In this document: positions 3-13,827 of the stretch, in pieces | Numbering within the stretch: position 1 is the first letter of the stretch | Layout: every line of letters begins with the position of its first letter | NCBI GenBank assembly: GCA_937950065.1 | Contig: CALFEN010000093.1 | Coordinates: 1-13,928 of the forward strand | DNA: 13,928 bases | Direction of reading: 5' to 3' | Origin: an uncultured bacterium | GTDB taxonomy: Bacteria; Patescibacteria; JAEDAM01; Absconditabacterales; Absconditicoccaceae | Notes under the pieces: generated by a model | The model's input: the letters and a program-made list of their open reading frames with translations, nothing else | What the model was told of the DNA's origin: nothing | Databases searched by the model: none | Made by a program: the position numbers and the translations under genes

Positions 3-164
3 ACAAGTACAGAAGATACATGAGATAACAGTACAGCCGATGATACATCTGACGATACAAGTGCAGAAGGAACATGAGATAATAGCACAGCTGATGATGC
101 ATCTGACGACACAAGTACAGAAGATACATGAGATAACAGTACAGCCGATGATACATCTGATGAT
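3..164 (+). repeat. Three tandem 54-bp coding repeats
   Basis: Units span 3-56, 57-110 and 111-164, with a fragment of a fourth from 165. Units 1 and 3 differ by only one base; unit 2 carries several changes, two of which give E-D to E-G and T to A substitutions. The repeats are in frame and stay in register, which fits expansion by slippage or unequal recombination. The array may begin upstream of the window. Confidence 0.9.
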
Positions 165-410
165 ACAAGTACAGACTCAAATCCTGATATAACTAAATTG
201 AAAACTTTGATGGATAAGGCTAATGAGATATACTCATCTGCTTTATCACAAAAAAATACTTTGGCACAGGCTTTTGCAAAGATTGCGAAGGAGAGAGCTG
301 ATGAGGCTATAAAAAATATTCAGAAATGAACTAATGTAGATATGACAGTAAAAACTGCTTATATACAGGCGTTTATAGATAAAGCACAGAGTAATTTAAC
401 AAATAGATAA
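3..410 (+). CDS. 3' end of a gene for a Thr/Ser/Asp-rich repeat protein, probably surface or secreted (partial)
   Basis: The window opens inside this gene; 135 residues remain before TAA (followed at once by a second TAA). I do not recognise the family. The first 54 residues are three copies of an 18-residue unit, TSTEDTGDNSTADDTSDD, very acidic and rich in Thr, Ser and Asp, which suggests a disordered stalk or linker. About 80 residues follow that look like a helical C-terminal domain rich in Lys, Ala and Gln, with no membrane segment and no sortase motif. TGA is read as Gly at 21-23, 75-77, 129-131 and 327-329; in the repeats it falls at the same unit position each time, so it behaves as an ordinary codon. 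Acidic Thr/Ser repeats are common in cell-envelope proteins, but the location is inference because the N-terminus is outside the window. Confidence 0.75.
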
Positions 411-898: not shown

Positions 899-970
899 GC
901 CAAGGTAGCTCAGGGGTAGAGCAGAGGCCTGAAAAGCCTTGTGTCGGCAGTTCGATTCTGCCCCTTGGCA
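899..970 (+). tRNA. tRNA-Phe (anticodon GAA)
   Basis: All four arms fold: acceptor GCCAAGG with CCTTGGC (963-969), D stem GCTC/GAGC, anticodon stem GAGGC/GCCTT, T stem GGCAG/CTGCC with loop TTCGATT. The anticodon loop CTGAAAA gives GAA, so it reads UUC and UUU. Discriminator A at 970; the CCA end is not encoded and must be added after transcription. Confidence 0.95.
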
Positions 971-1002
971 ATTTAATTGTAAAATTAGAGGTATTGTATA
1001 TC

Positions 1003-1076
1003 CGGGGACTAGCTCAGATGGCTAGAGCGCTTGTCTTGGGAACAAGAGGTCGTGAGTTCGAGTCTCGCGTCCCCGA
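1003..1076 (+). tRNA. tRNA-Pro (anticodon TGG)
   Basis: Acceptor CGGGGAC pairs with GTCCCCG (1069-1075); anticodon stem CTTGT/ACAAG and T stem GTGAG/CTCGC also fold. Loop CTTGGGA gives anticodon UGG with G at position 37, as in other proline tRNAs; a C at position 1 is also typical. U34 can read all or most CCN codons. No encoded CCA. It follows tRNA-Phe by 32 bases and is probably in the same transcript. Confidence 0.95.
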
Positions 1077-1085
1077 AAATTCTAT

Positions 1086-1162
1086 GGGCGAGTAGCTCAG
1101 TTGGTTAGAGCGCATCTCTGATAAGGATGAGGTCGACAGTTCAAATCTGTCTTCGCCCACCA
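1086..1162 (+). tRNA. tRNA-Ile (anticodon GAT), CCA encoded
   Basis: Acceptor GGGCGAG pairs with TTCGCCC (1152-1158, one G-U pair); anticodon stem CATCT/GGATG; T stem begins at GACAG. Loop CTGATAA gives anticodon GAU, reading AUC and AUU. Discriminator A (1159) is followed by an encoded CCA (1160-1162), unlike its two neighbours. Only 9 bases separate it from tRNA-Pro, so processing from a shared precursor is likely. Confidence 0.95.
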
Positions 1163-1341: not shown

Positions 1342-2520
1342 ATGGCTTGAACTAAACCACATGTAAATGTTTGAACTATTGGTCACGTTGATCATGGTAA
1401 AACAACAACAACTGCTGCTATGTCAAAAGTTTTGGCAACAAAGGGTTTTGCAAAAGATATTCCTTTTGACCAAATTGATAAAGCTCCAGAAGAAAGAGAA
1501 AGAGGTATTACAATTAATACAGCTCATATTGAATATGAATCAGAAACAAGACATTATGCTCATATTGATTGTCCTTGACATGCTGATTATGTTAAAAATA
1601 TGATTGTTTGAGCTGCTCAAATGGACGGTGCAATTCTTGTTGTATCTGCTCCAGACGGACCAATGCCTCAAACAAGAGAACATATCCTTCTTGCAAATCA
1701 GGTTAACGTTCCATATATTATAGTTTTCTTAAATAAGGTTGATATGGTGGACGATCCAGATATGCTTGAATTAGTAGAAGAAGAAATTAGAGATCTATTG
1801 AAAAAGAATAACTACCCAGGTGATGAAATACCAATAATCAGAGGTTCTGCTCTTAAAGCAGGTCAAAATCCTACTGATGAAAACGGTGATGCTAAATGTA
1901 TGTGGGATCTTTTGAAAGCTTTGGATGAATATATTCCACTTCCAGAAAGAGACGTATCAAAACCATTTCTTATGCCTATAGAAGACGTATTTTCAATTAA
2001 AGGTAGAGGAACTGTTGTTACAGGTAGAATAGAAAGAGGTGTATTGAAACTAAATGAAGAAATTGAAATAGTATGACTTGGTGCTGAAAAAGGTAAAAAG
2101 ACAGTTGTTACTTGAATAGAAATGTTCCATAAACAATTTGATAAAGCAGAAGCATGAATGAATGTATGATTGCTTTTGAGATGAGTACAGAAAGATGAAG
2201 TAGAAAGATGACAAGTTTTGGCTGCTCCAGGTTCAATTACTCCTCATAAAAAATTCGAATGAAATGTGTACGTTCTTAAAAAAGAAGAAGGATGAAGACA
2301 TACTCCATTTATGACTGGTTATAAACCACAGTTCTTCTTTAGAACTACAGATGTTACAGGTAGTATCACAATAGATGGTGAAATGATTATGCCAGGTGAT
2401 AATGCTAAAATAACAGTAGAACTTATATATCCTGTTGCTATGGAAGAAGGTTTGAGATTTGCTATCAGAGAATGAGGCAGAACAGTTTGAGCATGAGTTG
2501 TTACAAAAATATTAGAATAA
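1342..2520 (+). CDS. tuf: Translation elongation factor Tu
   Basis: EF-Tu (392 residues; family about 394-400) is the GTPase that carries aminoacyl-tRNA to the ribosomal A site. The G domain shows the P-loop G-H-V-D-H-G-K-T near residues 14-21, the RGIT switch I motif, D-C-P-G-H at 76-80, N-K-V-D at 131-134 and S-A-L at 169-171. Domains 2 and 3 follow, with the expected end motif REGGRTVGAGVV. The invariant switch II glycine (residue 79) is encoded by TGA at 1576-1578, as are residues 3 and 11. By hand count 15 glycines use TGA and 24 use GGN; 1612-2073 contains no TGA although it has 10 glycines. Stop TAA is followed directly by TAG. The ATG gives M-A-G-T-K-P-H-V-N-V-G-T-I-G-H, matching the family start. 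There is no Shine-Dalgarno sequence. Confidence 0.98.
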
Positions 2521-2550
2521 TAGATTTGGAAATAGATTACATATTTCAAT

Positions 2551-2578
2551 AGGAATAGGACTAAACAGTCCTTTTCCT
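2551..2578 (+). promoter_or_regulatory. Hairpin between tuf and rpsJ (attenuator or partial terminator)
   Basis: A 12-position stem, AGGAATAGGACT (2551-2562) with AGTCCTTTTCCT (2567-2578), has one T-T mismatch and an AAAC loop. It is followed by GTTTTAT, a short interrupted T tract. It could partly end tuf transcripts so that EF-Tu mRNA exceeds ribosomal-protein mRNA, stabilise the tuf 3' end, or act as an operon leader structure. The fold is clear; the role is inference. Confidence 0.6.
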
Positions 2579-2601
2579 GTTTTATAAACTGATAAATAAT
2601 T

Positions 2602-2928
2602 ATGGCTACAAAGAAAGATTGACCAAAATTAAGAATTAAATTGCAAAGTTATGATCTTAAAGCTTTGGATAATGCTGCTTTCAAGATAATGTCTTTGATA
2701 GTAAAATCTGGTGCTGTGGTAAAATGACCAATACCATTGCCAAAGAAAAGAAAATTATATACTGTCTTAAGAGCACATTTTGTATATAAAGATTCCAGAG
2801 AACAATTTGAGAGAATAACATATACAAGACTTATAGATGTAGTAGAAAATTGAGCAAAAACTGTAGAGTATTTACAAAATGCAACAATTCCAGTTTGAGT
2901 GTCAGTTGAAGCTAAATTGTTTGAATAA
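2602..2928 (+). CDS. rpsJ: 30S ribosomal protein S10 (uS10)
   Basis: uS10 binds the 3' domain of 16S rRNA in the head of the small subunit and, with NusB, takes part in antitermination. The 108 residues match the family length (about 102). Recognisable pieces are [10 protein letters not shown] near the start, [15 protein letters not shown] in the middle and the closing V-S-V-E-A-K-L. TGA encodes glycine four times, including in K-G-P-I-P-L-P. It is the first gene of the classical S10 operon and lies 81 bases after tuf, the hairpin falling between them. No Shine-Dalgarno sequence precedes the ATG. Confidence 0.97.
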
Positions 2929-2941
2929 TTAAAAAAAATTA

Positions 2942-2954
2942 TTGGCAGTGCCAA
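2942..2954 (+). promoter_or_regulatory. Small hairpin between rpsJ and rplC
   Basis: TTGGC (2942-2946) pairs with GCCAA (2950-2954) around a three-base AGT loop, in the middle of an otherwise AT-only 49-base gap. It ends 23 bases before the rplC ATG and has no T tract. It may be an RNA processing or protein-binding site; this is a guess from position only. Confidence 0.35.
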
Positions 2955-2977
2955 ATTTAATAAGTTAAAAATAACCA

Positions 2978-3577
2978 ATGAATAATTGATGATTGATATT
3001 AAAAAAACAAGAGATGACAAGATTGTGGATTGATAATGACTATGTTCCAGTCACTCTTTTGAAATTTGTTGAACAAGAAATAATTGGTTATAGAACAATG
3101 GAAAAAGATGGTTATGAAGCTGTGATAATATGAATGGGTAAGAAAGAACTTAATAAAGAAAAGTGAATTAAACTAAAATATGATATGGTTTGTGAATTCA
3201 AGATCAATGACTGATTTGCTCAAGCAAATGAGGCAGGTAAAATACTTGAATTTGATATGTTGAACGATGTAGAGACTATAGCTGTCACATGAACTTCAAA
3301 GTGAAAAGGTTATCAATGAGTAATCAGAAGATATGGTTTCCACTGATGACCAGAAACTCATGGTTCTAAATTCCATAGACGGCCAGGTTCTATCTGAAAC
3401 AGAAAACCAAGAAGAGTAGCAAAATGAAAAAAATTACCATGACATATGTGATTGGAAACAGTTACTCTAAAAAATGTTAAAATTATTGACAGAATAACAT
3501 TGGATAATGAAAAATTACTAGCTGTAAAATGAAGTATTCCAGGTGCTTACAATAGCTTTTTAAAAATTGTTTTATAA
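2978..3577 (+). CDS. rplC: 50S ribosomal protein L3 (uL3)
   Basis: uL3 is an early-assembly 23S rRNA-binding protein near the peptidyl transferase centre. The start was chosen at ATG 2978 rather than the obvious ATG 3014: with TGA as Gly the upstream stretch reads M-N-N-G-G-L-I-L-K-K-Q-E-M-T-R-L-W, which lines up with the family start (G-L-I-G-K-K-V-G-M-T-R-I-F), whereas 3014 would remove the first strand. The result is 199 residues, close to the usual 200-215. The conserved core follows: V-T-G-T-S-K-G-K-G-Y-Q-G, F-H-G-G-P-E-T-H-G-S and P-G-H-M-G near residues 100-160. About 15 glycines are TGA, including tandem TGA-TGA at codons 4-5 and in F-H-G-G. No Shine-Dalgarno is visible. Confidence 0.95.
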
Positions 3578-3590
3578 TTAAGGCTCAAAA

Positions 3591-4226
3591 ATGTATAAGA
3601 TCCCAGTGTATGATATAAATGGCAAAAAAATTAAAGACTTAAATCTAAATGAGGTTGTTTTTAATGATGAAAATATAAATAATGATTTGATTCATGAGTT
3701 TATAGTTATGCAGCAAGCAAATGCTCGCCAAGCAAATGCTCATACAAAAAATAGATGAGAAGTTACTTGTTCAGGTAAAAAACTTTTTAGACAAAAAGGA
3801 ACCTGAAGAGCTAGAGTAGGTGATGCATGATCTCCTATTAGGAGAAAAGGTTGAGTTGCTTTTGGTCCAAGAAACAACAGAAATTACGAAAAAGATATGC
3901 CAAAGAAAATGAGAAGGAAAGCACTTTTTGGTGCACTTACTATGAAGGCTAGAGACAATGAGATCTTGGGATTGGATAAGTACCCTTATGAAGCTATTAA
4001 AACAAAAGATGCTTTTGAAGCACTAAAAAATCTATGATTAGCAGATACAAAAACATTGTTCGTGATTCCAGAAAATAATGAAGTTTTGGTTAAGTCATTT
4101 AGAAACGTTCCTAACGTAAAATATGTATTTGCAAGCTATGTAAATCCTTATGACTTATTAACATACAAGAAAGTATTGTTTTTAGAAGAATCTTTAAATA
4201 AGATACAAGAGGTATTCGTAAAATAA
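3591..4226 (+). CDS. rplD: 50S ribosomal protein L4 (uL4)
   Basis: uL4 binds 23S rRNA domain I and sends a loop into the polypeptide exit tunnel; in E. coli it also represses the S10 operon. The 211 residues match the family (about 200-210). The tunnel loop is recognisable as Q-K-G-T-G-R-A-R-V-G at residues 68-77, then R-R-K-G-G-V-A-F-G-P and K-K-M-R-R-K-A-L. TGA encodes five glycines, one in the Q-K-G-T-G motif. It follows rplC by 13 bases; AAGG at 3579-3582 is one of the few Shine-Dalgarno-like sequences in the window. Whether this uL4 autoregulates the operon cannot be told from sequence. Confidence 0.96.
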
Positions 4227-4248
4227 TTTAAATAATAAGTAAATTAAA

Positions 4249-4590
4249 ATGGTATTTAAAGACAAGTTAAGAAGAAGAGCTATAAAATCAACAGAAGTTA
4301 AAGTGTTGAATAAAATCAATTACAACGACGTATTGTTGAGTCCTATAGTTACTGAAAAAACTATGAAATTGCAGGAAACATTAAATAAATATGCTTTTGT
4401 AGTGCATAAAGATTCTAATAAAAACGATGTAAAAGTTGCAGTTAAATTAATATATAATGTAGATCCAGAAGCTATTGATATAATTCATTCTCCATACAAA
4501 GGTAGAAATAGAAGGCCTTTGGTGAGGAAAGACTACAAAAAAGCAATAATAACTCTGAAAAAAGGAGATAAAATAGAAATAGTAAAATAG
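4249..4590 (+). CDS. rplW: 50S ribosomal protein L23 (uL23)
   Basis: uL23 sits at the exit of the ribosomal tunnel and docks trigger factor, SRP and the Sec channel. It has 113 residues against a usual 95-100; the extra length is a basic N-terminal segment, M-V-F-K-D-K-L-R-R-R-A, before the conserved S-P-I-V-T-E-K-T at about residues 32-39. No later Met could serve as a start without removing that motif, so the extension is probably real. The C-terminal part has the usual Y-K-G-R-N-R-R-P and closing I-T-L-K-K-G-D-K-I-E. It is the only complete gene here without a TGA codon; its few glycines are GGT or GGA. Ends with TAG. Confidence 0.95.
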   Translation: MVFKDKLRRRAIKSTEVKVLNKINYNDVLLSPIVTEKTMKLQETLNKYAFVVHKDSNKNDVKVAVKLIYNVDPEAIDIIHSPYKGRNRRPLVRKDYKKAIITLKKGDKIEIVK

Positions 4591-4612
4591 TTTAATATGT
4601 TAAAAATCAAAA

Positions 4613-5458
4613 ATGTGATTAAAAACTTACAAACCTTACACACCATCTAGACGTTATATGATATGATACGGTTTTGAAGAGATAACAAAAACAACTCCTG
4701 AAAAAAGTTTGACTGTTTTTATCGGATCAACAGCCGGTAGAAATAATCAATGAAGAATAACAACTAGGTTTAGATGAGGAGGACACAAAAGAAAATACAG
4801 ATTGATAGATTTCAGATGATATGATAAATCTGATATCCCTGCAAAAGTAGCATCTATTGAGTATGATCCTTACAGGACTGCAAGAATAGCTTTGCTTCAA
4901 TATGCAGACGGAGAAAAAAGATACGTCATAGCATGGAAATGAGTAAAGGTTTGAGATCAAGTAATGACATGAGAAAAATCATTATTGCTTCCATGAAACA
5001 GAAAGAAATTAAAAGATATTCCAGAATGATTTAATATATTCAATCTTGAGATTGTGCCAAATACAAAGGCAAAGATGCTTAGATCTGCTTGAAGTTTTGC
5101 TACAATATCAGGTAAAGATGAACAACAAAAATTGGTTTTCATAAAACTTGCTTCATGAGAAGTTAGAAAATTTAATGAAAATTGTTGGGCTACTATTTGA
5201 GAAATCGGGAATGAAGATCATAAAAATGTAGTTTTGTGAAAAGCTGGAAGAAGTAGATGGCTCGGTAGAAAACCACAAGTTCTTGGTAAATCTATGAACC
5301 CTGTAGACCATCCACATTGAGGTTGAGAATGACATTCTCCTATCGCATTGAAATTCCAGAAATCATTTACTTGAGTACCAGTACCTCCATGAAAGAAGAC
5401 TAGAAGCTCAAAGAAATGGTCAAATAAATTCATCGTATCAAGAAGAACTAAAAATTAA
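4613..5458 (+). CDS. rplB: 50S ribosomal protein L2 (uL2)
   Basis: uL2 is needed for subunit association and supports peptidyl transfer. It has 281 residues (family about 273-280). The start at 4613 uses TGA as its second codon: [14 protein letters not shown], matching the family start. Conserved blocks are [32 protein letters not shown] and, near residues 230-243, [14 protein letters not shown]. In that last block the glycines are TGA, GGT, TGA and TGA (5318-5332), beside the conserved histidine (residue 235). I count about 19 TGA glycines, so with code 11 this gene breaks into many pieces. It lies 22 bases after rplW. Confidence 0.97.
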
Positions 5459-5479
5459 TTTAAATTATAAAATTAAGAT

Positions 5480-5737
5480 ATGGCTAGATCACTAAAAAAA
5501 TGATTTTATGTAAATCCAAAGATATTAAAAAAAATAGAAGACATGATAAAGTCTTGAGATAAAAAAATTCTCAAAATTTACGACAGAGCATGTCAGATTC
5601 TTCCTGAAATGGTAGGATTTACATTCGCAGTTCATAATTGAAAACAATTTGTTAGTATTTATGTTACAGAGGAACTTATTTGACATAGGTTTTGAGAATT
5701 CGCTCCTACAAGGACATTTAGATGACACCCTTTTTAA
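5480..5737 (+). CDS. rpsS: 30S ribosomal protein S19 (uS19)
   Basis: uS19 sits in the 30S head, next to S13, and contacts the A-site tRNA region. The 85 residues fit the family (about 88-93). The start M-A-R-S-L-K-K-G-F-Y-V and the end E-F-A-P-T-R-T-F-R-G-H are signature sequences. Six of seven glycines are TGA, including both in the I-G-H and F-R-G-H motifs. It follows rplB by 21 AT-rich bases. Confidence 0.97.
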
Positions 5738-5766
5738 GAATATTTTAATAATTAAAGGTTAGTATA

Positions 5767-6108
5767 ATGGATAAAAGTATGACAGCTACACTTAAATATG
5801 CTCTATCTTCAGATAAAAAAATGGAGTTGGTAGCAAGATTAGTAAGAGGAAAGGATGTAAATACTGCAATCAGTATTTTGACTTTCACTCCAAAAAAAGC
5901 TGCTAAAATATTAGTGAAGGTTATCAAATCTGCCTATTATAATGCTAAATATAAAAATCCTAATTTAGACGGAAGTGCGTTGATAGTATCAAAAATAGAT
6001 TTGTGAAAATGACCAACTATAAAAAGAATGAAATTTGTATGAAGATCTAGGATTCATGGACTTATAAAATACAGAACATTTATAAAAGTTGTTTTAGATA
6101 ATAAATAA
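5767..6108 (+). CDS. rplV: 50S ribosomal protein L22 (uL22)
   Basis: uL22 binds all 23S rRNA domains and lines the exit tunnel with a beta hairpin. The 113 residues match the family (about 110-115). Seen in order: A-T-L-K-Y-A-L-S-S-D-K-K-M-E-L-V-A, the helix around K-S-A-Y-Y-N-A-K (S-A-x-x-N-A in the family), and the hairpin tip with K-G-P-T-I-K-R and G-R-S-R-I. Three TGA glycines cluster in the hairpin region (6002-6042); with code 11 the protein would stop at residue 79, just before it. AAAGG at 5754-5758 is a weak Shine-Dalgarno match. The next gene starts 6 bases after the stop. Confidence 0.96.
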
Positions 6109-6114
6109 AAAGTA

Positions 6115-6801
6115 ATGGGACAAAAAGTAGATCCAAGAGGTTTTAGAATATGATTTACAAAATCTTGGCCATCAGAATGGTTTGCAAAAACTAAAGGTCA
6201 GAGTGCTCAATTTTTTGTAGAAGATATTAAAATCAGAAATTTTATAGAAGAGACATTTCCAAGAGCCTGAATAGGTAAAGTTGTTATTAGAAAAACAGAC
6301 AAAGATTTGGAAATCATAATCTTCACTGCAAAACCTGCTTGAATTATCGGTAAAGAATGAAAAAAACTTGCTGAATTCCAAGAAAAACTTGAGAAAAAAT
6401 TCCAAAAACAATTTAAAGTTGTAGTAAAGGAAATAAGAGTTCCTGAACTTTCAGCTAAAGTTATGTGAGAATTTGCCTGTGAACAACTAGAAAAAAGAGT
6501 TCCTTACAGAAGAGTAGCAAAATGAGTATTGCAAAGAGTAATGGACAAATGATGAATTTGAGTAAAAATACAGGTATGATGAAGGCTTGGTTGAGTAGAT
6601 CTTTCTAGAAGTGAAAAATTTATAGACTGAAGAGTTCCATTACAGACTATTAGATCTGATATAGACTATCATTATACTACAGCTCTTACAAAATACTGAA
6701 TACTATGAGTAAAAGTATGGATCTATAAATGAGATGTATTTACAAAATCAAAATCTAGCTCTAAATCATTGAATTTAAAAGCTAAACCAAAAAAGAAATA
6801 A
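6115..6801 (+). CDS. rpsC: 30S ribosomal protein S3 (uS3)
   Basis: uS3 forms part of the mRNA entry channel and helps unwind mRNA. The 228 residues match the family (about 210-235). It starts M-G-Q-K-V-D-P-R-G-F-R-I-G, then the KH-type domain with A-G-I-I-G-K-E-G-K-K near residues 75-84, and the C-terminal domain with V-P-Y-R-R, G-R-L-G-G-V-D-L-S-R-S and a lysine-rich end. I count 16 TGA glycines against six GGN, including tandem TGA-TGA twice and the GxxG-like KH loop (GGT and TGA mixed). With only 6 bases after rplV, its translation is probably coupled to that gene. Confidence 0.97.
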
Positions 6802-6823
6802 TTTACATGATTAATATATAAAA

Positions 6824-7246
6824 ATGTCTTTATTGTCACCAAATAGATGGAAACACAGAAAACAGATGAGACTTAGAGTAGAATGAATGGCTACAAGAGG
6901 AACTTATGTGTCTTTCGGTGATTTCGGTATGAAAGCTTTGAACAATTGTTATTTAACAAACAGACAGTTAGAAGCTGCCAGAAAAGTTATAGTTAGATTT
7001 ACAAGAAAGCTTGGTAAAATACGGTTGAGAGTGTTCCCTGATGTGCCTTATACCAAAAAGTGATTGGAAATGCCTATGGGTTCATGAAAATGAGACGTAG
7101 ATACATTCAGAGCAAGAATTAGAAGATGAGCTATACTTTTTGAAATAAACTGAGTTAGTAGAGAAGTCGCACAAGAAGCTTTTAAACAAGCTTCATACAA
7201 ACTACCTTTGCAGACAGTTACTGTAGAGAAATGAGAAATCAAATAA
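6824..7246 (+). CDS. rplP: 50S ribosomal protein L16 (uL16)
   Basis: uL16 organises the tRNA-binding architecture of the 50S A and P sites and is a late assembly protein. The 140 residues fit the family (about 136-144). Matches include P-N-R-W-K-H-R-K-Q near the start, F-G-D-F-G-M-K-A-L, the basic R-V-F-P-D-V-P-Y-T-K-K-G-L-E-M-P-M-G-S-G-K-G block and L-P-L-Q-T-V-T-V near the end. Seven glycines are TGA, two in G-S-G-K-G. The leader and start region is pure A/T apart from one C and a few G. Confidence 0.96.
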
Positions 7247-7269
7247 TTTAAAAATAATTCAATTTAAAG

Positions 7270-7491
7270 ATGAAAAAACTTGAATTTAAAGAACTACTTG
7301 CAAAAACTATAAAGGAATTAGTAAAACTTAGAAATGATTTAAAATCAGAGCTTTTCCAATTGAGAATGAAAAATGCTGTGAGATGACTTAAAGAATTACA
7401 TTTCATAAGAATTACAAGAAGAAATATTGCAAGGATCAATACTGCTTTAAATCATAAATTAAACAATACAGATGGTAATAATATGAGATAA
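7270..7491 (+). CDS. rpmC: 50S ribosomal protein L29 (uL29)
   Basis: uL29 is a small two-helix protein at the tunnel exit, next to uL23, where trigger factor and SRP bind. The 73 residues are slightly longer than usual (60-70). The pattern fits: K-E-L-V-K-L-R-N-D-L-K-S-E-L-F-Q-L-R-M-K in helix 1 and R-I-T-R-R-N-I-A-R-I-N-T in helix 2. There is a single TGA glycine (7384-7386). The 3' end overlaps the proposed start of rpsQ by 20 bases, so translation of the two is probably coupled. Confidence 0.94.
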
Positions 7492-7726
7492 GAATATCAA
7501 GGAATTGGTTGGAAAAGTAGTTAGCGACAAGATGCAAAAATCTTTGGTCGTAGTAGTGGAGAGAGTAAAATCACATCCTCTTTACAAAAAAAGATTTGTT
7601 GTAAGAAAAAAATACTATGTTCATGACGAAAATGAAACAGCTAAAATTGGTGATACAGTAAGGATAAGAGAATCAAAACCTATATCCAAATTGAAAAGAT
7701 GGACTCTTATAGAGATTGTCAAATAA
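7472..7726 (+). CDS. rpsQ: 30S ribosomal protein S17 (uS17)
   Basis: uS17 is a primary 16S rRNA-binding protein in the body of the small subunit. The conserved fold is clear: L-V-G-K-V-V-S-D-K-M-Q-K-S, then H-P-L-Y-K-K-R, Y-Y-V-H-D-E-N and S-K-L-K-R-W-T-L. I place the start at ATG 7472, inside the end of rpmC, giving 84 residues (family about 80-88). This reads through TGA (7484-7486) as Gly: M-V-I-I-G-D-K-N-I-K-E-L-V-G. The alternative, TTG at 7505, loses the residues before the first strand that other uS17 proteins have. The 5' end is inference from family length and frame. Confidence 0.9.
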
Positions 7727-7780
7727 TGAAAATATTTCATAGAGATATATTCTCATTTTAATAGATAAAATTATTTAATA

Positions 7781-8146
7781 ATGTTGCAAACAGAATCAAG
7801 AGTTAAGATAGTAGACAACACATGAGCAAAAACATGACTTATCATAAGCATACTAAAATGAAATGCAAAAACAGTTACAGTATGAGATAAGGTTGTAATC
7901 GCTGTGAAATCAGCACTGCCATCCTCTAACTACAATAAATGAGATGTCGTTCGGGCTGTAGTAGTCAGAGTGGCAAAAGAAATTAGAAGAAAAGATGGAT
8001 CATACATCAGATTTGAAGATAATGCAGTTGCAATTATAGATAAAGATGGTGCAGCAAAATGAAAAAGAATTTTTGGTCCGGTAGCGAAAGAACTTAGAGA
8101 AAAAGGTTTCAAAAATATTGCAAATATTGCAGAAGAAATTATTTAG
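7781..8146 (+). CDS. rplN: 50S ribosomal protein L14 (uL14)
   Basis: uL14 lies at the subunit interface and forms a bridge to 16S rRNA. The 121 residues match the family (about 122). Landmarks are [14 protein letters not shown] at the start, the R-A-V-V-V-R segment, F-E-D-N-A-V-A-I-I and [10 protein letters not shown]. Six TGA glycines, including those in D-N-T-G-A-K and K-K-G-D-x-V-type positions. It opens the spc half of the cluster and comes after a 54-base AT-rich gap containing only weak inverted repeats. Ends with TAG. Confidence 0.97.
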
Positions 8147-8163
8147 TTTGTTAATACAAAATA

Positions 8164-8454
8164 ATGAGAAAAATCAAAACAGGCGATAAAGTACAGGTAA
8201 TAAGTGGAAAATATAAATGAGCTGTTTCTGAAGTTCAAGCTGTTGTCGATGACCAAAAACTTGTAGTAAAGTGAGTAAATGTAGTAAAAAAAGCAGTTAA
8301 ATGACAATGAATTAAAGAAAAAACCTTGCCGCTAGATAAATCAAATGTTATGTATTATTGTTCAAAATGTAAAAAACCTGTTAGACTTTGAATAATGGTA
8401 GATAAAAATAATAAAAAAGTGAGAGTATGTAAAAAATGCTGAACAACTATTTAA
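8164..8454 (+). CDS. rplX: 50S ribosomal protein L24 (uL24), zinc-ribbon form
   Basis: uL24 starts assembly of the 50S subunit. The 96 residues are close to the usual 100-105. A KOW domain fills the N-terminal half (G-D-K-V-Q-V-I-S-G-K-Y-K-G). The C-terminal knuckle keeps two C-x2-C pairs: C66/C69 (C-S-K-C) and C89/C92 (C-K-K-C-G), which in Cys-containing homologues such as that of Thermus form a likely zinc site; many bacterial L24 proteins have lost them. Six glycines are TGA, including the one after C92. Only 17 bases follow rplN. Confidence 0.96.
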
Positions 8455-8474
8455 ATTAATAATAATTAAAAAGA

Positions 8475-9023
8475 ATGAGTCTATATCATGATTTTAATAA
8501 AAGAATCAAATTTGAATTAAAGGAAAAACTTTGAAAAAAGAATATCCATCAAGTACCAAAAATAGATAAAATCGTAGTTTCTATGGGTATTGGTTCTTTG
8601 GCTACCAGAAAATGAATAAAGGATTTTTCTGACCTTGAAAAAAATCTTATGACTATAACAGGTCAAAAACCTCAAATGATAAAATCAAGAAAAGCTATCT
8701 CAAACTTCAAACTTAGAGAAAATATGCCTATGATGCTAAAAGTTACTTTGAGAAGAGAAAGAGCTTATGATTTTATAGAAAGAATGGTAAATCTTGTATT
8801 GCCTAGGGTTAGAGATTTTCAATGATTGTCAGACAGAAAATTTGACTGACATGGAAATTACAATATTTGATTTCAAAATCAAACTGTTTTCCCTGAAGTA
8901 ATACCAGAAGATATTATAACTTCACATTGAATACAAGTAAGTATCGCAACTACTGCTGATACAGATGAAGATGCAAAGACTCTTTTGAAATCATTGAATA
9001 TAATATTTGCAGAAAAAAAATAA
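8475..9023 (+). CDS. rplE: 50S ribosomal protein L5 (uL5)
   Basis: uL5 binds 5S rRNA, contacts P-site tRNA and helps build the central protuberance. The 182 residues match the family (about 179-187). Landmarks: [14 protein letters not shown] near residues 27-40, the T-G-Q-K-P segment with [12 protein letters not shown], the L-P-R-V-R-D-F block and [11 protein letters not shown]. Six TGA glycines include the one in F-D-G-H-G-N-Y. No Shine-Dalgarno; the leader is A-rich. Confidence 0.97.
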
Positions 9024-9044
9024 TTTATAATATAAATATACGAA

Positions 9045-9269
9045 ATGGCAAAAAAATCAGTAATTGCTCAACAGGAAAGGTTAAACGATAAAAGACTAAA
9101 AGCTATATCCACATGAATTAAAGCAAAAAAACCTACTAAATACTACAATAGATGTAAGGTTTGTGGAAGAACTGGTTCTTATATCAGAGAATTTGGTATA
9201 TGCAGAGTATGCTTTAGAAAATACGCAAGAGAATGACTTATCATGTGAGTAAGAAAAGCTAGTTGGTAA
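9045..9269 (+). CDS. rpsN: 30S ribosomal protein S14, zinc-binding type (uS14)
   Basis: uS14 sits in the 30S head near the decoding side. This is the short Cys4 form (also called RpsZ): 74 residues with C37-K-V-C40 and C53-R-V-C56, then F-R-K-Y-A-R-E-G-L-I and the fixed end V-R-K-A-S-W. The usual zinc form has about 61 residues; the extra ones are a basic N-terminal stretch. Three glycines are TGA; the glycine after C40 is GGA. A single short Cys4 copy placed in the spc cluster, as in Gram-positive bacteria and Thermus, is consistent with a zinc-containing ribosome. Confidence 0.97.
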
Positions 9270-9297
9270 AATATTTAATAATTAAGATAATAAAAAA

Positions 9298-9702
9298 ATG
9301 AGTTTTGTTAATGCTCCAATAAATGATTTGCTTATCAGGATTAAAAATAGCTACATGGCTAGAAGAACTGAAGTAAATTGAGTCACCTATTCCAAATTTA
9401 AAGAGAATGTTTTGGCTTTGTTAAAAAGATATAATTTCGTGTTGGGTTATGAAATTATCACAGACTGAAACAAGAAATTTCTTAATATAAAACTTAAAGA
9501 AGTAAAAGATCCTGTAGCTGATATACCTGTGGTAAAACTTATATCCACACCAAGTAGAAAGACTTACGTATCATACACTCATCTAAAAACAGTAGCATGA
9601 GGTCGTGGTATCTGAATAATATCTACAAGTAAATGATTAATGGCTACTCATGAAGCTAAAAAAAATAAAGTTTGATGAGAACTTATAGCTGAAATATATT
9701 AG
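9298..9702 (+). CDS. rpsH: 30S ribosomal protein S8 (uS8)
   Basis: uS8 binds 16S rRNA helix 21 and, in E. coli, represses the spc operon. The 134 residues match the family (about 130). Landmarks: D-L-L-I-R-I-K-N-S near residues 10-18, S-T-P-S-R-K-T-Y, then G-R-G-I-G-I-I-S-T-S-K-G-L-M-A-T-H-E-A (the signature) and the end G-G-E-L-I-A-E-I-Y. Seven TGA glycines, four of them in and around the signature. Ends with TAG. I saw no clear S8-binding mimic in the mRNA. Confidence 0.97.
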
Positions 9703-9725
9703 TTTTAAAATATAAATTAATACTG

Positions 9726-10271
9726 ATGTCTAGAATATGAAAACTACCTATACAACTTCCATCTTGAGTAGAAGTTAATATAAATTGACAATATATAGTA
9801 GTCAAATGACCAAAATGACAACTTGATTATACATGCCCAAACGGCGTAGAAATCAAGATGGTTGAAAATGAAATACACACTTCTATAATTTCTGATGAAT
9901 ACAAAAATCTATGGGGACTAGTAAGAACTCTTATAGATAATATGGTAGTTGGAGTGAGTCAATGATATGAAAAAAAACTTCATGTATTGTGAGTTTGATA
10001 TAATGCCAAAGTACAGTGAAATAAACTTATACTAAATCTTGGTTATTCTCATCCTATAGAATACGCTTTGCCAGCAGGTATTTCTGCTACTACAGCAAAA
10101 GACTCAAAATGAAATGATATAATAAGTATTGCCTGAATAGATAAACAAAAAGTATGAGAAGTTAGTGCTAAAATAATAACATTTAGAGCTCCTGAAGTTT
10201 ATAAGTGAAAATGAGTTAGATATTTCGGACAGATCATAAAACTTAAAGCAGGTAAAACATCTAAAAAATAA
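9726..10271 (+). CDS. rplF: 50S ribosomal protein L6 (uL6)
   Basis: uL6 lies beside the sarcin-ricin loop and the factor-binding site. The 181 residues match the family (about 177-185). It starts [15 protein letters not shown] and has the family blocks V-K-G-P-K-G-Q-L, L-V-G-V-G-Y-type (here L-G-V-G-Y-N-A), L-N-L-G-Y-S-H-P and A-P-E-V-Y-K-G-K-G-V-R-Y near the end. By hand count 14 glycines are TGA and seven GGN; the G-K-G before V-R-Y uses TGA twice. It lies 23 bases after rpsH. Confidence 0.97.
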
Positions 10272-10296
10272 TATTTAAAACTCTATAAATACAAAG

Positions 10297-10656
10297 ATGA
10301 TAAAAGAAAGAAATAATGTTTTGGACAAAATCAGAAAATATTTTGCCAGAAAAAGAAGAGTGAACACTATTGCAAAACAACTTACAGATAGACCAAGACT
10401 TATAGTAAATAAGTCAAATAAATTTATCTATGCACAAATCATAGATAGAAACGGTAATGTAGTAGTTTCAAGTAATGATATGAAAATTAAATCTTGAACA
10501 AAATCTGAAAGGGCAAAACAAGTTTGACTTGATTTGGCAAAAAAATCTTTGGATAAAAAAGTTGAAGAAGTTGTTTTTGATAGAAACTGATTTCTTTATA
10601 TAGGGAGAGTCCAAATGCTTGCTGAAGGTGCAAGAGAAGGTTGACTTAAATTTTAA
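10297..10656 (+). CDS. rplR: 50S ribosomal protein L18 (uL18)
   Basis: uL18 binds 5S rRNA with uL5 and helps attach it to the central protuberance. The 119 residues match the family (about 112-120). Landmarks: the basic start K-I-R-K-Y-F-A-R-K-R-R, R-P-R-L-I-V-N-K-S-N-K-F-I-Y-A-Q-I-I-D, and near the end F-D-R-N-G-F-L-Y-I-G-R-V with A-E-G-A-R-E-G-G-L-K-F. Four TGA glycines; with code 11 the protein would stop at residue 66. ACAAAG just before the ATG is not a convincing Shine-Dalgarno. Confidence 0.96.
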
Positions 10657-10674
10657 TAATTTAAAAATATTTGT

Positions 10675-11469
10675 ATGAGAGATAGAAAACCTAAACAGGA
10701 AAAGAAATATGAAGAGCTATTGCTAGAAGTAAGGAGAGTAACCAGAGTTACTACTGGTGGTAGAAGGCTTTCTTTTAGAGCTACAATCATTGTCTGAAAT
10801 AAAAAAGGCAAAATTTGACTTTGAATAGCAAAATCATGAGATGTAGCATGAGCTGTAAGTAAAGCTACTCATGATGCTTACAAAAATATGTTTCTTGTGC
10901 CTATAGTCTGATCAAATACAGTTCCTTATACTGTAACAAATAAATATAAGTCAGCTATAGTAAAGCTTATACCAGCAGGTGCTTGAACTTGACTTAAAGC
11001 TTGATCTGCAGTTAGATCTGTTCTTAATCTAGCAGGATACAATAATATTTTGTCAAAAATTATTTGAACTAATAATAAACTTAATAATGCTTTGGCTACA
11101 ATCTATGCATTGTCAATGTTTAAAGCTGAAAGACCAGTCCAAGATGAAACTGATGATGAAGTTACAGAACCTGTAGTAGAAGAAAAGAAAACAAGAACTT
11201 CCAATCCAAAAATGGATAAATCTGCTAAACCAGCACCAAGAAAGGCAGCTCCAAAAGCAAAACCTCAAACTGCTGAAGAAGCTACAGATGCTAAATCTCC
11301 AAAAATAGATAAAGTAGAAAAAACTTCAAAAACAGCAAAGCCAGCAGTAAAAAAAGAAACAATCAAAAAAGTAGTGTTGACCGAAGTTAAGAAAACTAAA
11401 AAAGCTGAAACTACTGAAGAAGCTCCAGTAAAAAAATCTACTAAAAAACCTACTAAAAAAGCTGAATAA
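10675..11469 (+). CDS. rpsE: 30S ribosomal protein S5 (uS5) with a long charged C-terminal tail
   Basis: uS5 lies at the mRNA entry side of the 30S body and affects decoding accuracy. Residues 1-155 are the normal protein: E-L-L-L-E-V-R-R-V-T-R-V-T-T-G-G-R-R in the double-stranded RNA-binding fold, then A-K-S-G-D-V-A-G-A-V-S-K-A, T-V-P-Y-T-V-T and I-P-A-G-A-G-T-G-L-K-A-G. Ten glycines there are TGA. The protein then continues in frame for about 109 more residues (usual total about 160-175; here 264). The tail opens acidic (D-E-T-D-D-E-V-T-E), turns into a Lys/Ala/Pro/Thr-rich stretch, and contains no Gly, Cys, Trp, Tyr or Phe. The same reading frame runs without a stop from core to tail, so the tail is not a separate gene. 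Confidence 0.96.
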
Positions 11470-11492
11470 TTTAAATAATAATAAATTTTAGA

Positions 11493-11951
11493 ATGCTTAT
11501 CAATGAACTTACAAAAAGTAAATGACTAACAAGAAAATCTAAAAGAAGAGGTAGATGAAATTCTTCTGGAAGATGAAATTATAGTACTAGATGACTAAAA
11601 TGACAGTGAGCCAGAACTGGATCAGGAAATCGTGCTGCATGGTTTGAAGGTTGACAAACTCCTTTGAATTTAAGGTTGCCTAAATTAAAGGGATTTAAAA
11701 GACCAAAAAATCTTGTGAAAGATTATATTGCTCTAAATCTATGAAGACTTGAAAAAGATTCTAAAATCACTAATAATATGACTATAGATAAAAAACTTTT
11801 GAAAGAGTTTAATTATATCAAAAAAGAAGATGCCCTTGTGAAAGTTTTGTGAACTTGAGAATTTTCAAAGAATTTGACATTTACTTGAATGGATGCAGTA
11901 TCTGAATCAGCTAAACAAAAGATAGAACAGGCATGAGGAAAAATCAATTAA
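11493..11951 (+). CDS. rplO: 50S ribosomal protein L15 (uL15)
   Basis: uL15 is a 23S rRNA-binding protein with an extended glycine-rich N-terminus that threads into the rRNA core. The 152 residues match the family (about 144-150). The N-terminus shows K-R-R-G-R-G-N-S-S-G-R-G-N and R-G-L-K-G-Q-G-A-R-T-G-S-G, matching the usual G-R-G-H-K-G-Q-x-A-R-S-G; then F-E-G-G-Q-T-P-L-N-L-R-L-P-K near residues 53-66 and a fitting end. I count 12 TGA glycines, and the glycine-rich arm mixes TGA, GGT and GGA. In most bacteria rpmD lies just before it; here the gap to rpsE is only 23 bases, so rpmD is absent. Confidence 0.96.
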
Positions 11952-11976
11952 GACTTTATAAAATTAAGAAACTTTA

Positions 11977-13308
11977 ATGACTGAATTTTTTAGATATCTC
12001 GGTGATATGTGGGCAAATAAGTCTATAAGAAAGAAAATTTATATCACTTTGGGTATATTGGTTCTTTATAGACTGCTTGTGTTTATACCAGTTCCTTTTG
12101 TTGATTTAAAGGCTTTGATAAGTGCTACAAATATTCAAAATTCATGATGATTGGAATACTTTGCAATGCTTCTTTGATGAACTCTGGATCAATTCTCAAT
12201 AATAGCTGTTTGACTTATTCCATTTATCAATGCATCTATTATCATGCAGCTTTTGACTTCTGTCCTGCCTCAACTTGAGGATCTGCAGGAACAGTGAGAA
12301 GTATGAACTATTAAAATTCAGCAGTATACTAGACGGATAACTTTTCCATTAGCATTTTTGCAATCTATCTGAATGGTATATTTTATAAATCATATATTGT
12401 GAGGTAGTATAATAAATACAGAAAGTTTTATTACAGTGCTTCTATCAGCGTTTGTATTGACTGTATGAACTGTAATGCTTATGTGGTTCGGTGAACTTAT
12501 CACAGAAAAATGAATATCAAACTGAACTTCTCTTATAATTTTTGCGAACATAGTTGCCTGAATATCATCAAAAGTATTTACATATACATCTTCTAATTCA
12601 TGAGCAGATTTGATGGGTATTGTATTGTTCATGATAGTTGTAGTGCTTGTATTGGTAATACTTTCAGTATTGATAATAAAAACAAGAAAGGAAATTCCAA
12701 TAATACATGCAAGACATGGTAAAGTACAAGAAACTGCAATATTGCCTATACCGTTGAATCCTGTTTGAATGGTGCCAATTATCTTTTCTATAGCATTTGT
12801 TACATTCCCATATTTATTGGCACAGGTTGTAACCAAGTATGGAAATAATATCCCATGACGAGTATCTTCTACTAGCGATTGGATATCTCAAAACTTTAAT
12901 ATATACACTCAAACACCATCATTATTAGTTATATTTATATATTTTTGTTTCATAGTATTGTTTACGTTCTTTTATACTCTTATAATGTTTAATCCTGATA
13001 AGATGGCTGATAATATCCAGAAAAGATGAGGTTTTATCCCTGGTATCAGACCTTGAGAAGAAACAGCAAAATATATAAATTCTACACTATTGCATCTTTG
13101 TTTATGGTGATGAATAGGTCTTTGAATAATATGAATATATTCTTATATACTTTCATATATACCTTTTATAGAAAGTATTACTAGGTCTTTGGGTTCTATC
13201 CCTGTAATAGTATCAGGTTCTTGAGTTATTATTATAGTATGAGTGGTGCAGGAACTTGTAAGCAAGATAAACGCAGACCTTGTAATGGCAAAATACGATA
13301 GATTCTAA
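11977..13308 (+). CDS. secY: Preprotein translocase channel subunit SecY
   Basis: SecY is the membrane channel through which SecA or the ribosome moves unfolded proteins out of the cytoplasm. The 443 residues match the family (about 430-440) and show about ten hydrophobic segments. Landmarks: the amphipathic start M-T-E-F-F-R-Y-L, G-E-L-I-T-E-K-G-I-S-N-G-T-S-L from residue 172, N-P-D-K-M-A-D-N from residue 339 followed by G-G-F-I-P-G-I-R-P-G, and the end L-V-M-A-K-Y-D-R-F. By hand count 24 glycines are TGA and 12 GGN, the most TGA of any gene here. It is the last gene of the run: adk, map and infA, which often follow, are not here, and a terminator comes 14 bases later. Confidence 0.97.
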
Positions 13309-13322
13309 TTAAAAATATTTTT

Positions 13323-13353
13323 AAAAAGACATACCGAAGGTATGTCTTTTTTT
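13323..13353. terminator. Bidirectional terminator between secY and the convergent gene
   Basis: GACATACC (13328-13335) pairs perfectly with GGTATGTC (13339-13346) around GAA. Seven T follow on the plus strand, and five A precede, which read as five T on the minus strand. It therefore can end both secY and the minus-strand gene, whose stop codon is 19 bases away. Confidence 0.9.
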
Positions 13354-13371
13354 GTTTTGATGTAAATTAAA

Positions 13372-13827
13372 TTATTCATTTCGGCAGAGATAAGAGCACT
13401 TTATACTATTATAAGCAGTAGTTGAATATGTCCTTCCGTTAGCAAGATTGCAATAAAAAGATCAATTGTCTCAAACGCTGATTTGAGCAGCATAATAACA
13501 TTTGCTATAATTACTTGGTAAATCCCCTCCACAAAGGCTAGTAGTCCATGTGATATCTTTCCGACCGCCACCTCATCGGCTTGATGAGCTTGAATAACAA
13601 TTTATAATTGTCAGATCTTTTAGTCATTTTTTGTCTACCAGAGTATTCCATTTCGCAGCAGTTAAAGTTTCTCAATTATTTACATATAGAGCTGTCGGGC
13701 TTGAATCAGTCAATCATGGATTGGTTGTCTGCCGAGCTCTTAAAGCAAAATAAGTCATTCCAAGTATTATAACTATTCCGAGTCAGATACTTAAGCCTTG
13801 GGTTAAGTTTTTGAAAAATAGTTTCAT
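13372..13827 (-). CDS. Small membrane-anchored, six-cysteine protein of unknown function
   Basis: I do not recognise a named family. Read with TGA as Gly it is a complete 151-residue protein on the minus strand, ATG at 13827-13825, TAA at 13374-13372; with code 11 it breaks into pieces of a few dozen codons. Residues 2-8 are short and basic (K-L-F-F-K-N-L), 12-29 form one membrane segment (L-S-I-G-L-G-I-V-I-I-L-G-M-T-Y-F-A-L), and the rest should lie outside the membrane. That part has N-G-E-T-L-T-A-A-K-W-N-T-L-V-D-K at 51-66, a motif I recall from surface, pilin-like or phage tail-like proteins, then Ser5-Arg-Gly4-Arg at 79-89 and six cysteines (77, 99, 110, 126, 144, 148) that could form three disulfides. 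No type IV prepilin cleavage motif is visible. Seven glycines are TGA. On the minus strand TAGATAAT about 30 bases before the ATG may be a -10 box. Confidence 0.82.

Follow-up and report, generated by a model that had tools for sequence, protein, structure and literature searches.

The stretch of DNA described here, contig CALFEN010000093.1 from an uncultured bacterium (13,928 nucleotides, referred to below as the window), contains a tuf/S10/spc operon in which UGA is read as glycine. We consider it highly likely that the operon comes from an uncultivated member of the Absconditabacterales and that, besides UGA serving as a glycine codon, CGG very probably serves as a second tryptophan codon. 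This is not a new kind of genetic code; what is separate is the lineage, whose code, altered in two ways, is already known.

With TGA taken as a sense codon, the plus strand holds genes for tRNA-Phe, tRNA-Pro and tRNA-Ile followed by 22 protein genes, from EF-Tu to SecY, arranged as is usual for the S10 and spc operons. These 22 genes, with uL6 started for the count at 9717 (three codons ahead of its likely ATG), comprise 3796 codons, including 184 in-frame TGA and 18 TGG codons. Internal TAA and TAG codons are absent, although 258 would be expected from the base composition, and the two remaining frames on that strand contain 273 and 261 of them. The genes end in TAA (19) or TAG (3), and none ends in TGA, as the original prediction for this stretch had said. 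That prediction had also put the number of recoded TGA codons at about 190 in 24 genes, which agrees well with the 196 counted over 24 frames when uL6 is taken from 9672; four of these are in a partial open reading frame (ORF) at 3-410, beyond the coordinates that the prediction covered, and seven in a minus-strand ORF at 13372-13827. The 309 glycine codons of the 22 genes consist of 184 TGA, 86 GGT, 32 GGA, five GGC and two GGG.

The amino acid was identified from alignments in which an X was put at every TGA, CGA and CGG codon, each protein was aligned to its tblastn homologs, and the amino acid that best fits each set of columns was scored. The homologs (3 to 80 per protein) came from 80 loci of other bacteria (L001-L080), which were assumed to use the standard code because they span many phyla. 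The first scoring excluded uL29 (three homologs, the minimum being nine) and had nine homologs for uS5 and 20 for uS8; in the second scoring these two were raised to 65 and 62, and uL29 had two. For the 176 of 184 TGA columns that were usable (in the other eight, occupancy was low or homologs were too few), the log-likelihood was 263.5 for glycine and -327.4 for the runner-up, alanine. When only columns in which a single residue is conserved at 70% or more are considered, 123 of 134 are glycine. The relatives of the window introduced below have a GGN codon in 174 of the 184 columns. When all codons were scored in the same way, every one of the 50 codons with at least five columns received its table 25 amino acid, as did 56 of 60 codons overall; the exceptions were CGG, GCG, CGA and ACG, with four columns or fewer each, and for GCG (n = 4) and ACG (n = 1) the columns are too few for the deviation to be read as a change of code. 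UGG is still tryptophan (18 columns, tryptophan 36.6, next phenylalanine -26.4).

Mycoplasma-like decoding of UGA as tryptophan (table 4) shares with the window a UGA that is sense, and it is how the database copies were translated: the window's SecY (P0001) carries W at all 24 of its TGA codons (24 of 443 residues) and the minus-strand protein (P0122) at all seven of its own (7 of 151 residues). However, just one of the 134 conserved TGA columns is tryptophan, none of the 184 columns has TGG in the relatives, and the second scoring gives tryptophan -530.9 as against 266.7 for glycine; the columns refute this reading, and we give it practically no chance of being correct. Two other database records, P0002 and P0003, look alike and were apparently also translated with UGA as tryptophan. 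The further possibility that UGA is a stop or selenocysteine codon, or that the frames have been broken by sequencing errors, would fit the translation with table 11, by which the operon stretch breaks into fragments. Its probability is negligible, since 184 TGA codons in 21 of the 22 genes, mostly at glycine columns, stand against zero TAA or TAG in the same 3796 codons, and this reading too is refuted by the columns.

Several individual sites that had been pointed out earlier were found as described. These are the DCPGH motif of EF-Tu, with TGA at 1576-1578, the FRGH site of uS19, the STSKG site of uS8 and the N-terminal arm of uL15, which has five TGA codons in the stretch shown. In the H-G-G-G-E-G-H motif of uL2 (5315-5335), TGA is at 5318, 5324 and 5330, and the middle glycine is GGT. 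In short, the column evidence that UGA is a glycine sense codon in this operon is strong.

The original prediction had also assigned tryptophan to TGG, which is true but incomplete. The 22 genes contain four CGG codons (10.5 per 10,000) and one CGA codon (2.6 per 10,000). The clearest CGG is at residue 67 of uL16 (7022-7024), where 76 of 79 homologs of other bacteria have W and the relatives have TGG (13 of 15) or CGA (2 of 15); this codon is very probably read as tryptophan. At residue 120 of SecY (12334-12336) the 16 relatives have TGG in four cases, CGA in three, a tyrosine codon in eight and a phenylalanine codon in one, and none has an unambiguous arginine codon (AGA, AGG, CGT or CGC); here, too, CGG probably stands for tryptophan. 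The same assignment is probable at residue 58 of uL14 (7952-7954), the weakest of the three sites, where 15 relatives have TGG (four), CGA (two), glutamine (four) or other codons (five), again with no unambiguous arginine codon. The fourth CGG, at 3380 in uL3, is in a neutral column.

A test based on the relatives compares these codons with the rest of the operon. A column counts in this test if TGG occurs in at least two relatives and AGA, AGG, CGT and CGC occur in no relative, and only columns with at least eight relatives were used (3714 of 3796), by which one AGA of the 212 unambiguous arginine codons was lost. Three of the four CGG codons are in such columns, as are 17 of the 18 TGG codons, none of the 211 unambiguous arginine codons and not the single CGA (0 of 1). 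Fisher's test of CGG against the arginine codons gives p = 2.4e-6, a value to be taken as a guide only because the codons in a column are related by descent. Scored against the other bacteria, the four CGG columns favour tryptophan (0.6) over tyrosine (-3.2) and arginine (-5.4). In the relatives, pooled CGA (70 columns) scores 56.1 for tryptophan versus -150.2 for arginine. On this evidence CGG is very probably a second tryptophan codon in the window. Use of CGG exceeds that of CGA in the window and in one relative (G020), unlike in most of the relatives examined.

The decoding machinery was examined in relatives of the window. The search set consisted of 353 genomes of one class, reached from a Peregrinibacteria locus (L002, genome G001). 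The window SecY has matches in 339 of them; the 47 strongest (at least 450 bits, the next being 349.5) fall within genomes G004-G052, and in 46 of them the SecY gene contains TGA in frame. The resulting group of 49 relatives is therefore defined by match strength and by the order of our genome labels, not by taxonomy; its other two members (G006 and G042) lack the SecY match and have the UCA tRNA pattern described next. A tRNA-Gly(UCA) pattern was built from the UCA tRNAs of G020 and of RAAC1_SR1_1 (G046), so those two match by construction; it was found in 42 of the 49 relatives and in none of the 304 other genomes of the class. The glycine identity bases were judged by a rule taken from PMC8629427, and the fetched UCA tRNAs have G1:C72, C2:G71 and U73 in 30 of 30 cases and G3:C70 in 29 of 30. 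ARAGORN labels the UCA tRNA of the relatives tRNA-SeC, but this label follows the anticodon, and the identity bases are those of glycine, which is a further argument against selenocysteine. An earlier version of the UCA pattern was discarded, as its spacing was doubtful and its matches, in 45 of the 353 genomes in and outside the clade, were mostly due to chance; ARAGORN found a UCA tRNA at one of 12 such loci checked (L130, outside the clade).

The gene for release factor 2 (RF2), prfB, is matched above the cut-off in 201 of the 353 genomes and in none of the 49 relatives, which were judged by the best E-value per genome (at the level of release factor 1, RF1, with 5.6e-81 in G031 at best; three had no match) and, for seven of them, by bit scores. 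In all seven it is prfA, the gene for RF1, that gives the best prfB match (222-271 bits, the cut-off being 370), and these prfA genes have 2 to 17 TGA codons each; G046 has one more weak prfB match of 28.8 bits. The completeness of the relatives' genomes is not given, and the absence of a gene from any one of them is weak evidence. A second block of genomes of the class, G053-G129, is perhaps the Gracilibacteria (BD1-5). By best E-value it has no prfB over the cut-off except in G111, the UCA tRNA pattern is unmatched there, and its SecY genes have 0 to 9 TGA codons among the matches listed.

As to the tRNAs that would read CGA and CGG, G020, G046 and Candidatus Absconditicoccus praedator (G005) each have tRNAs with the anticodons UCG and CCG, which ARAGORN calls arginine from the anticodon. 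Read by eye, both tRNAs share A1:U72 and G73 with tRNA-Trp(CCA) in G005 and in G020; in G046 the CCG tRNA has A1:U72 and G73 and the UCG tRNA has G1:C72 and G73. A UCG tRNA pattern was found in 35 of the 49 relatives, missing G005, in which ARAGORN does find a UCG tRNA. Identity bases were read with the T-loop as anchor, and 29 of 30 fetched UCG tRNAs carry G73 and have a D-loop in which the GG is not followed by an A (no A20). A strict CCG pattern matched four of the 49 genomes, and all four tRNAs have A1:U72 and G73; this is not a count of presence, as the pattern missed the CCG tRNAs that ARAGORN found in G020, G046 and G005. As controls, arginine tRNAs from the same loci have A73 (UCU, 21 of 23; GCG, 2 of 2; CCU, 1 of 1), and 3 of 3 tRNA-Trp(CCA) have A1:U72 and G73. 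Thus the UCG and CCG tRNAs of the relatives mostly look like tryptophan tRNAs.

These observations lead us to propose the following scheme. UGA would be decoded by a tRNA-Gly with the anticodon UCA; RF2, which terminates at UGA, would have been lost, and RF1 would terminate at UAA and UAG. UGG remains tryptophan, CGG would be read by a tRNA-Trp with the anticodon CCG or UCG, and CGA would also be read by the UCG tRNA, leaving AGA, AGG, CGU and CGC for arginine. Since the tRNAs, RF1 and the lack of an RF2 match over the cut-off were seen in the relatives, we infer that the genome of the window has the same parts, and the typing of the tRNAs as tryptophan or glycine tRNAs presumes that the identity bases have the same meaning here as elsewhere. 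A variant in which CGG is tryptophan while CGA is still, or again, arginine seems improbable to us; it would split a pair that is expected to change jointly, given that one UCG tRNA reads both.

The most serious competitor is plain table 25, in which UGA is glycine but CGG is still arginine, so that the three CGG codons in tryptophan columns would be substitutions or chance. Several observations weigh against the doubly altered code, and most of them favour plain table 25. The case for CGG consists of four codons only, of which the one in uL16 is strong. The SecY column is tyrosine in other bacteria (among 56 homologs, Tyr 49, Trp 3, Ile 2, Gln 1 and Phe 1, with no arginine) and tyrosine or tryptophan within the clade. 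The uL14 column is variable, with lysine in 46 and arginine in 17 of 71 homologs of other bacteria. The uL3 column contains alanine, serine, lysine and, in 5 of 69 homologs, arginine, with no tryptophan among the homologs; 13 relatives have threonine (5), alanine (4), histidine (3) or serine (1). The single CGA, at residue 295 of SecY (12859-12861) in a variable loop, points both ways: other bacteria mostly have tryptophan (35) or phenylalanine (12), with a doubtful alignment at that place, and the 16 relatives have Arg 4, Thr 4, Lys 3, Ser 2, Gln 1, Met 1 and Phe 1. The relatives' own CGG codons, pooled over nine columns, fit phenylalanine (11.5) better than tryptophan (5.4), with arginine at -20.3. 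Arginine-type UCG tRNAs also occur: one (L266, in G034) is among the 30 fetched, and the other (L193) is the second UCG tRNA that G020 has.

Other points bear on UGA and on the machinery. Eleven of the 134 conserved TGA columns are not glycine (five Ala, two Arg, and one each of Thr, Trp, Pro and Asp), and some of these may be alignment shifts. The tRNA-Gly(UCA) pattern is unmatched in seven of the 49 relatives (G011, G012, G023, G031, G033, G051 and G052), and yet two of these, G023 and G031, have 12 and 15 TGA codons in SecY. The prfA gene is over its own cut-off in only four of the seven relatives checked, and the tRNA and release factor evidence comes from relatives only. Against plain table 25 stand the three of four CGG codons versus 0 of 211 arginine codons in the columns of the relatives test, the nearly invariant W in uL16, the tryptophan type of most of the UCG and CCG tRNAs checked, and the score of the pooled CGA columns. 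We consider table 25 by itself unlikely and prefer the doubly altered code. As to the two arginine-like UCG tRNAs, L193 is on contig C4 of G020, which also has a tryptophan-like UCG tRNA, and for both L193 and L266 a mobile element or contamination is possible.

Both reassignments have been described before. PMC8629427 gives UGA as glycine as established for the Absconditabacteria and Gracilibacteria (citing Campbell 2013 and Rinke 2013), in line with the original prediction, which had called the recoding known; the same paper, by Shulgina and Eddy (2021), predicts that CGA and CGG are tryptophan in the Absconditabacteria. Judging from the available parts of two 2026 papers, one takes both changes as given (PMC13092985) and the other, on a member of the Absconditicoccaceae, speaks of code 25 (PMC13059738). 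The window resembles NCBI table 25 in having UGA at glycine columns, TAA and TAG as sole stops and TGG as tryptophan; in the relatives, tRNA-Gly(UCA) and the lack of a prfB match over the cut-off agree with that table too. The window is unlike table 25, which keeps CGG as arginine, in that three of four CGG codons are at tryptophan columns of the clade. Translating with table 25 and aligning each protein to its family, as had been suggested, puts glycine at the TGA columns, but table 25 is not the full code here. The suggested searches for a tRNA-Gly(UCA) and for loss of prfB were run on the relatives, with the outcome given above. The likeness to the code with tryptophan at CGA and CGG lies in those columns and in the mostly tryptophan-type UCG and CCG tRNAs of the relatives; it differs in that CGG outnumbers CGA in the window and is used slightly more than the general figure in PMC8629427, although the sample is small, and the single CGA points both ways.

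A separate lineage joins the bacteria in which UGA is glycine. Because CGG stands at tryptophan columns, table 25 puts arginine where tryptophan would be expected, for example at 7022 in uL16, which indicates that table 25 alone still gives wrong residues on such contigs, even in ribosomal proteins.

The lineage itself, which the original prediction had read from a recoding established for Absconditabacteria (SR1) and Gracilibacteria, was examined in a tree of 22 joined proteins from 20 taxa (LG+F+G4). The window is inside a clade of 15 relatives and so within the Absconditabacterales (SR1), with ultrafast bootstrap values of 100 at the base of the clade and 95 one node in; its place beside A. 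praedator is weakly supported (60). The window resembles A. praedator and RAAC1_SR1_1 in its operon, its use of UGA (199 of 310 glycine codons in A. praedator) and the kind of tRNA set. It is unlike them in that its mean amino acid identity to the 15 relatives over the operon (15 to 22 genes) is 59-65%, for which we take it to be a separate genus- or family-level lineage. The highest values are with G005 (64.9), G020 (64.1) and G031 (64.1); 13 relatives have all 22 genes, G021 has 15 and G031 has 18, and a sixteenth, G041, had one gene. Use of UGA swings widely within the clade, as TGA accounts for 8 of 334 glycine codons in the G020 operon (L197), 8 of 316 in the G040 operon (L211) and 263 of 345 in G025. 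Among the best 120 of 7999 candidate SecY homologs, the best matches after the window's own copy are 84 and 83% identical and come from metagenome contigs; these percentages are inexact, as the window's copy was translated with tryptophan at TGA and the two matches apparently were too. One SecY, P0008, is named Candidatus Peribacteria and is 67% identical to that of the window, compared with 61% for A. praedator; the name on the record may be wrong.

All 22 proteins, translated with table 25, match their own families (10 in Pfam, 12 in NCBIfam), and the universal names of ribosomal proteins are used here. The genes, all on the plus strand, are EF-Tu (tuf, 1342-2520, 15 TGA), uS10 (2602-2928, 4), uL3 (2978-3577, 15), uL4 (3591-4226, 5), uL23 (4249-4590, the only one with no TGA, ending in TAG), uL2 (4613-5458, 19), uS19 (5480-5737, 6), uL22 (5767-6108, 3), uS3 (6115-6801, 16) and uL16 (6824-7246, 7), identified with Pfam. 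They are followed by those identified with NCBIfam, namely uL29 (7270-7491, 1), uS17 (7472-7726, 1), uL14 (7781-8146, 6), uL24 (8164-8454, 6), uL5 (8475-9023, 6), uS14 of type Z (9045-9269, 3), uS8 (9298-9702, 7), uL6 (9726-10271, 14), uL18 (10297-10656, 4), uS5 (10675-11469, 10), uL15 (11493-11951, 12) and SecY (11977-13308, 24). Three of these score somewhat under the curated NCBIfam cut-off: uS14 (74.9 bits, cut-off 77), uS8 (109.9, cut-off 119) and uS5 (152.2, cut-off 164.05). The likely start of uL6 is the ATG at 9726, from which the TGA count is the same as from 9717; the longer frame from 9672 has 15. A Shine-Dalgarno-like tetramer (GGAG, GAGG, AGGA or AAGG) is found within 20 bases upstream of the start used in two of the 22 genes. 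The tRNA genes ahead of EF-Tu (899-1162, plus strand; ARAGORN and Rfam) are tRNA-Phe(GAA) at 899-970, tRNA-Pro(TGG) at 1003-1076 and tRNA-Ile(GAT) at 1086-1162, and the same trio is together in G005 and G020 (same order) and in G046 (Ile-Phe-Pro).

Upstream of the tRNA genes is the 3' part of an ORF (3-410, plus strand) with four TGA codons, for which there is no NCBIfam match and for which all Pfam matches are below the cut-off. It has a 54-bp tandem repeat (1-175, 3.2 copies) that encodes a T/D/S-rich repeat. Downstream of secY, on the minus strand at 13372-13827, is a gene for a small protein with an N-terminal hydrophobic segment and several cysteines, which has seven TGA, two CGG and two CGA codons and matches neither NCBIfam nor Pfam; from reading it, we presume that it is pilin-like. 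Besides the window's own copy, its homologs are three proteins without a name (57% identity over 93%, 47% over 100% and 88% over 44% of the query). One of them, P0124, has R opposite W60 of the window, but its codon was unseen and it was not used as evidence. All four copies have in common the stretch A-R-Q-(T/A)-T-N-P, which in the window holds a CGG that would be tryptophan.

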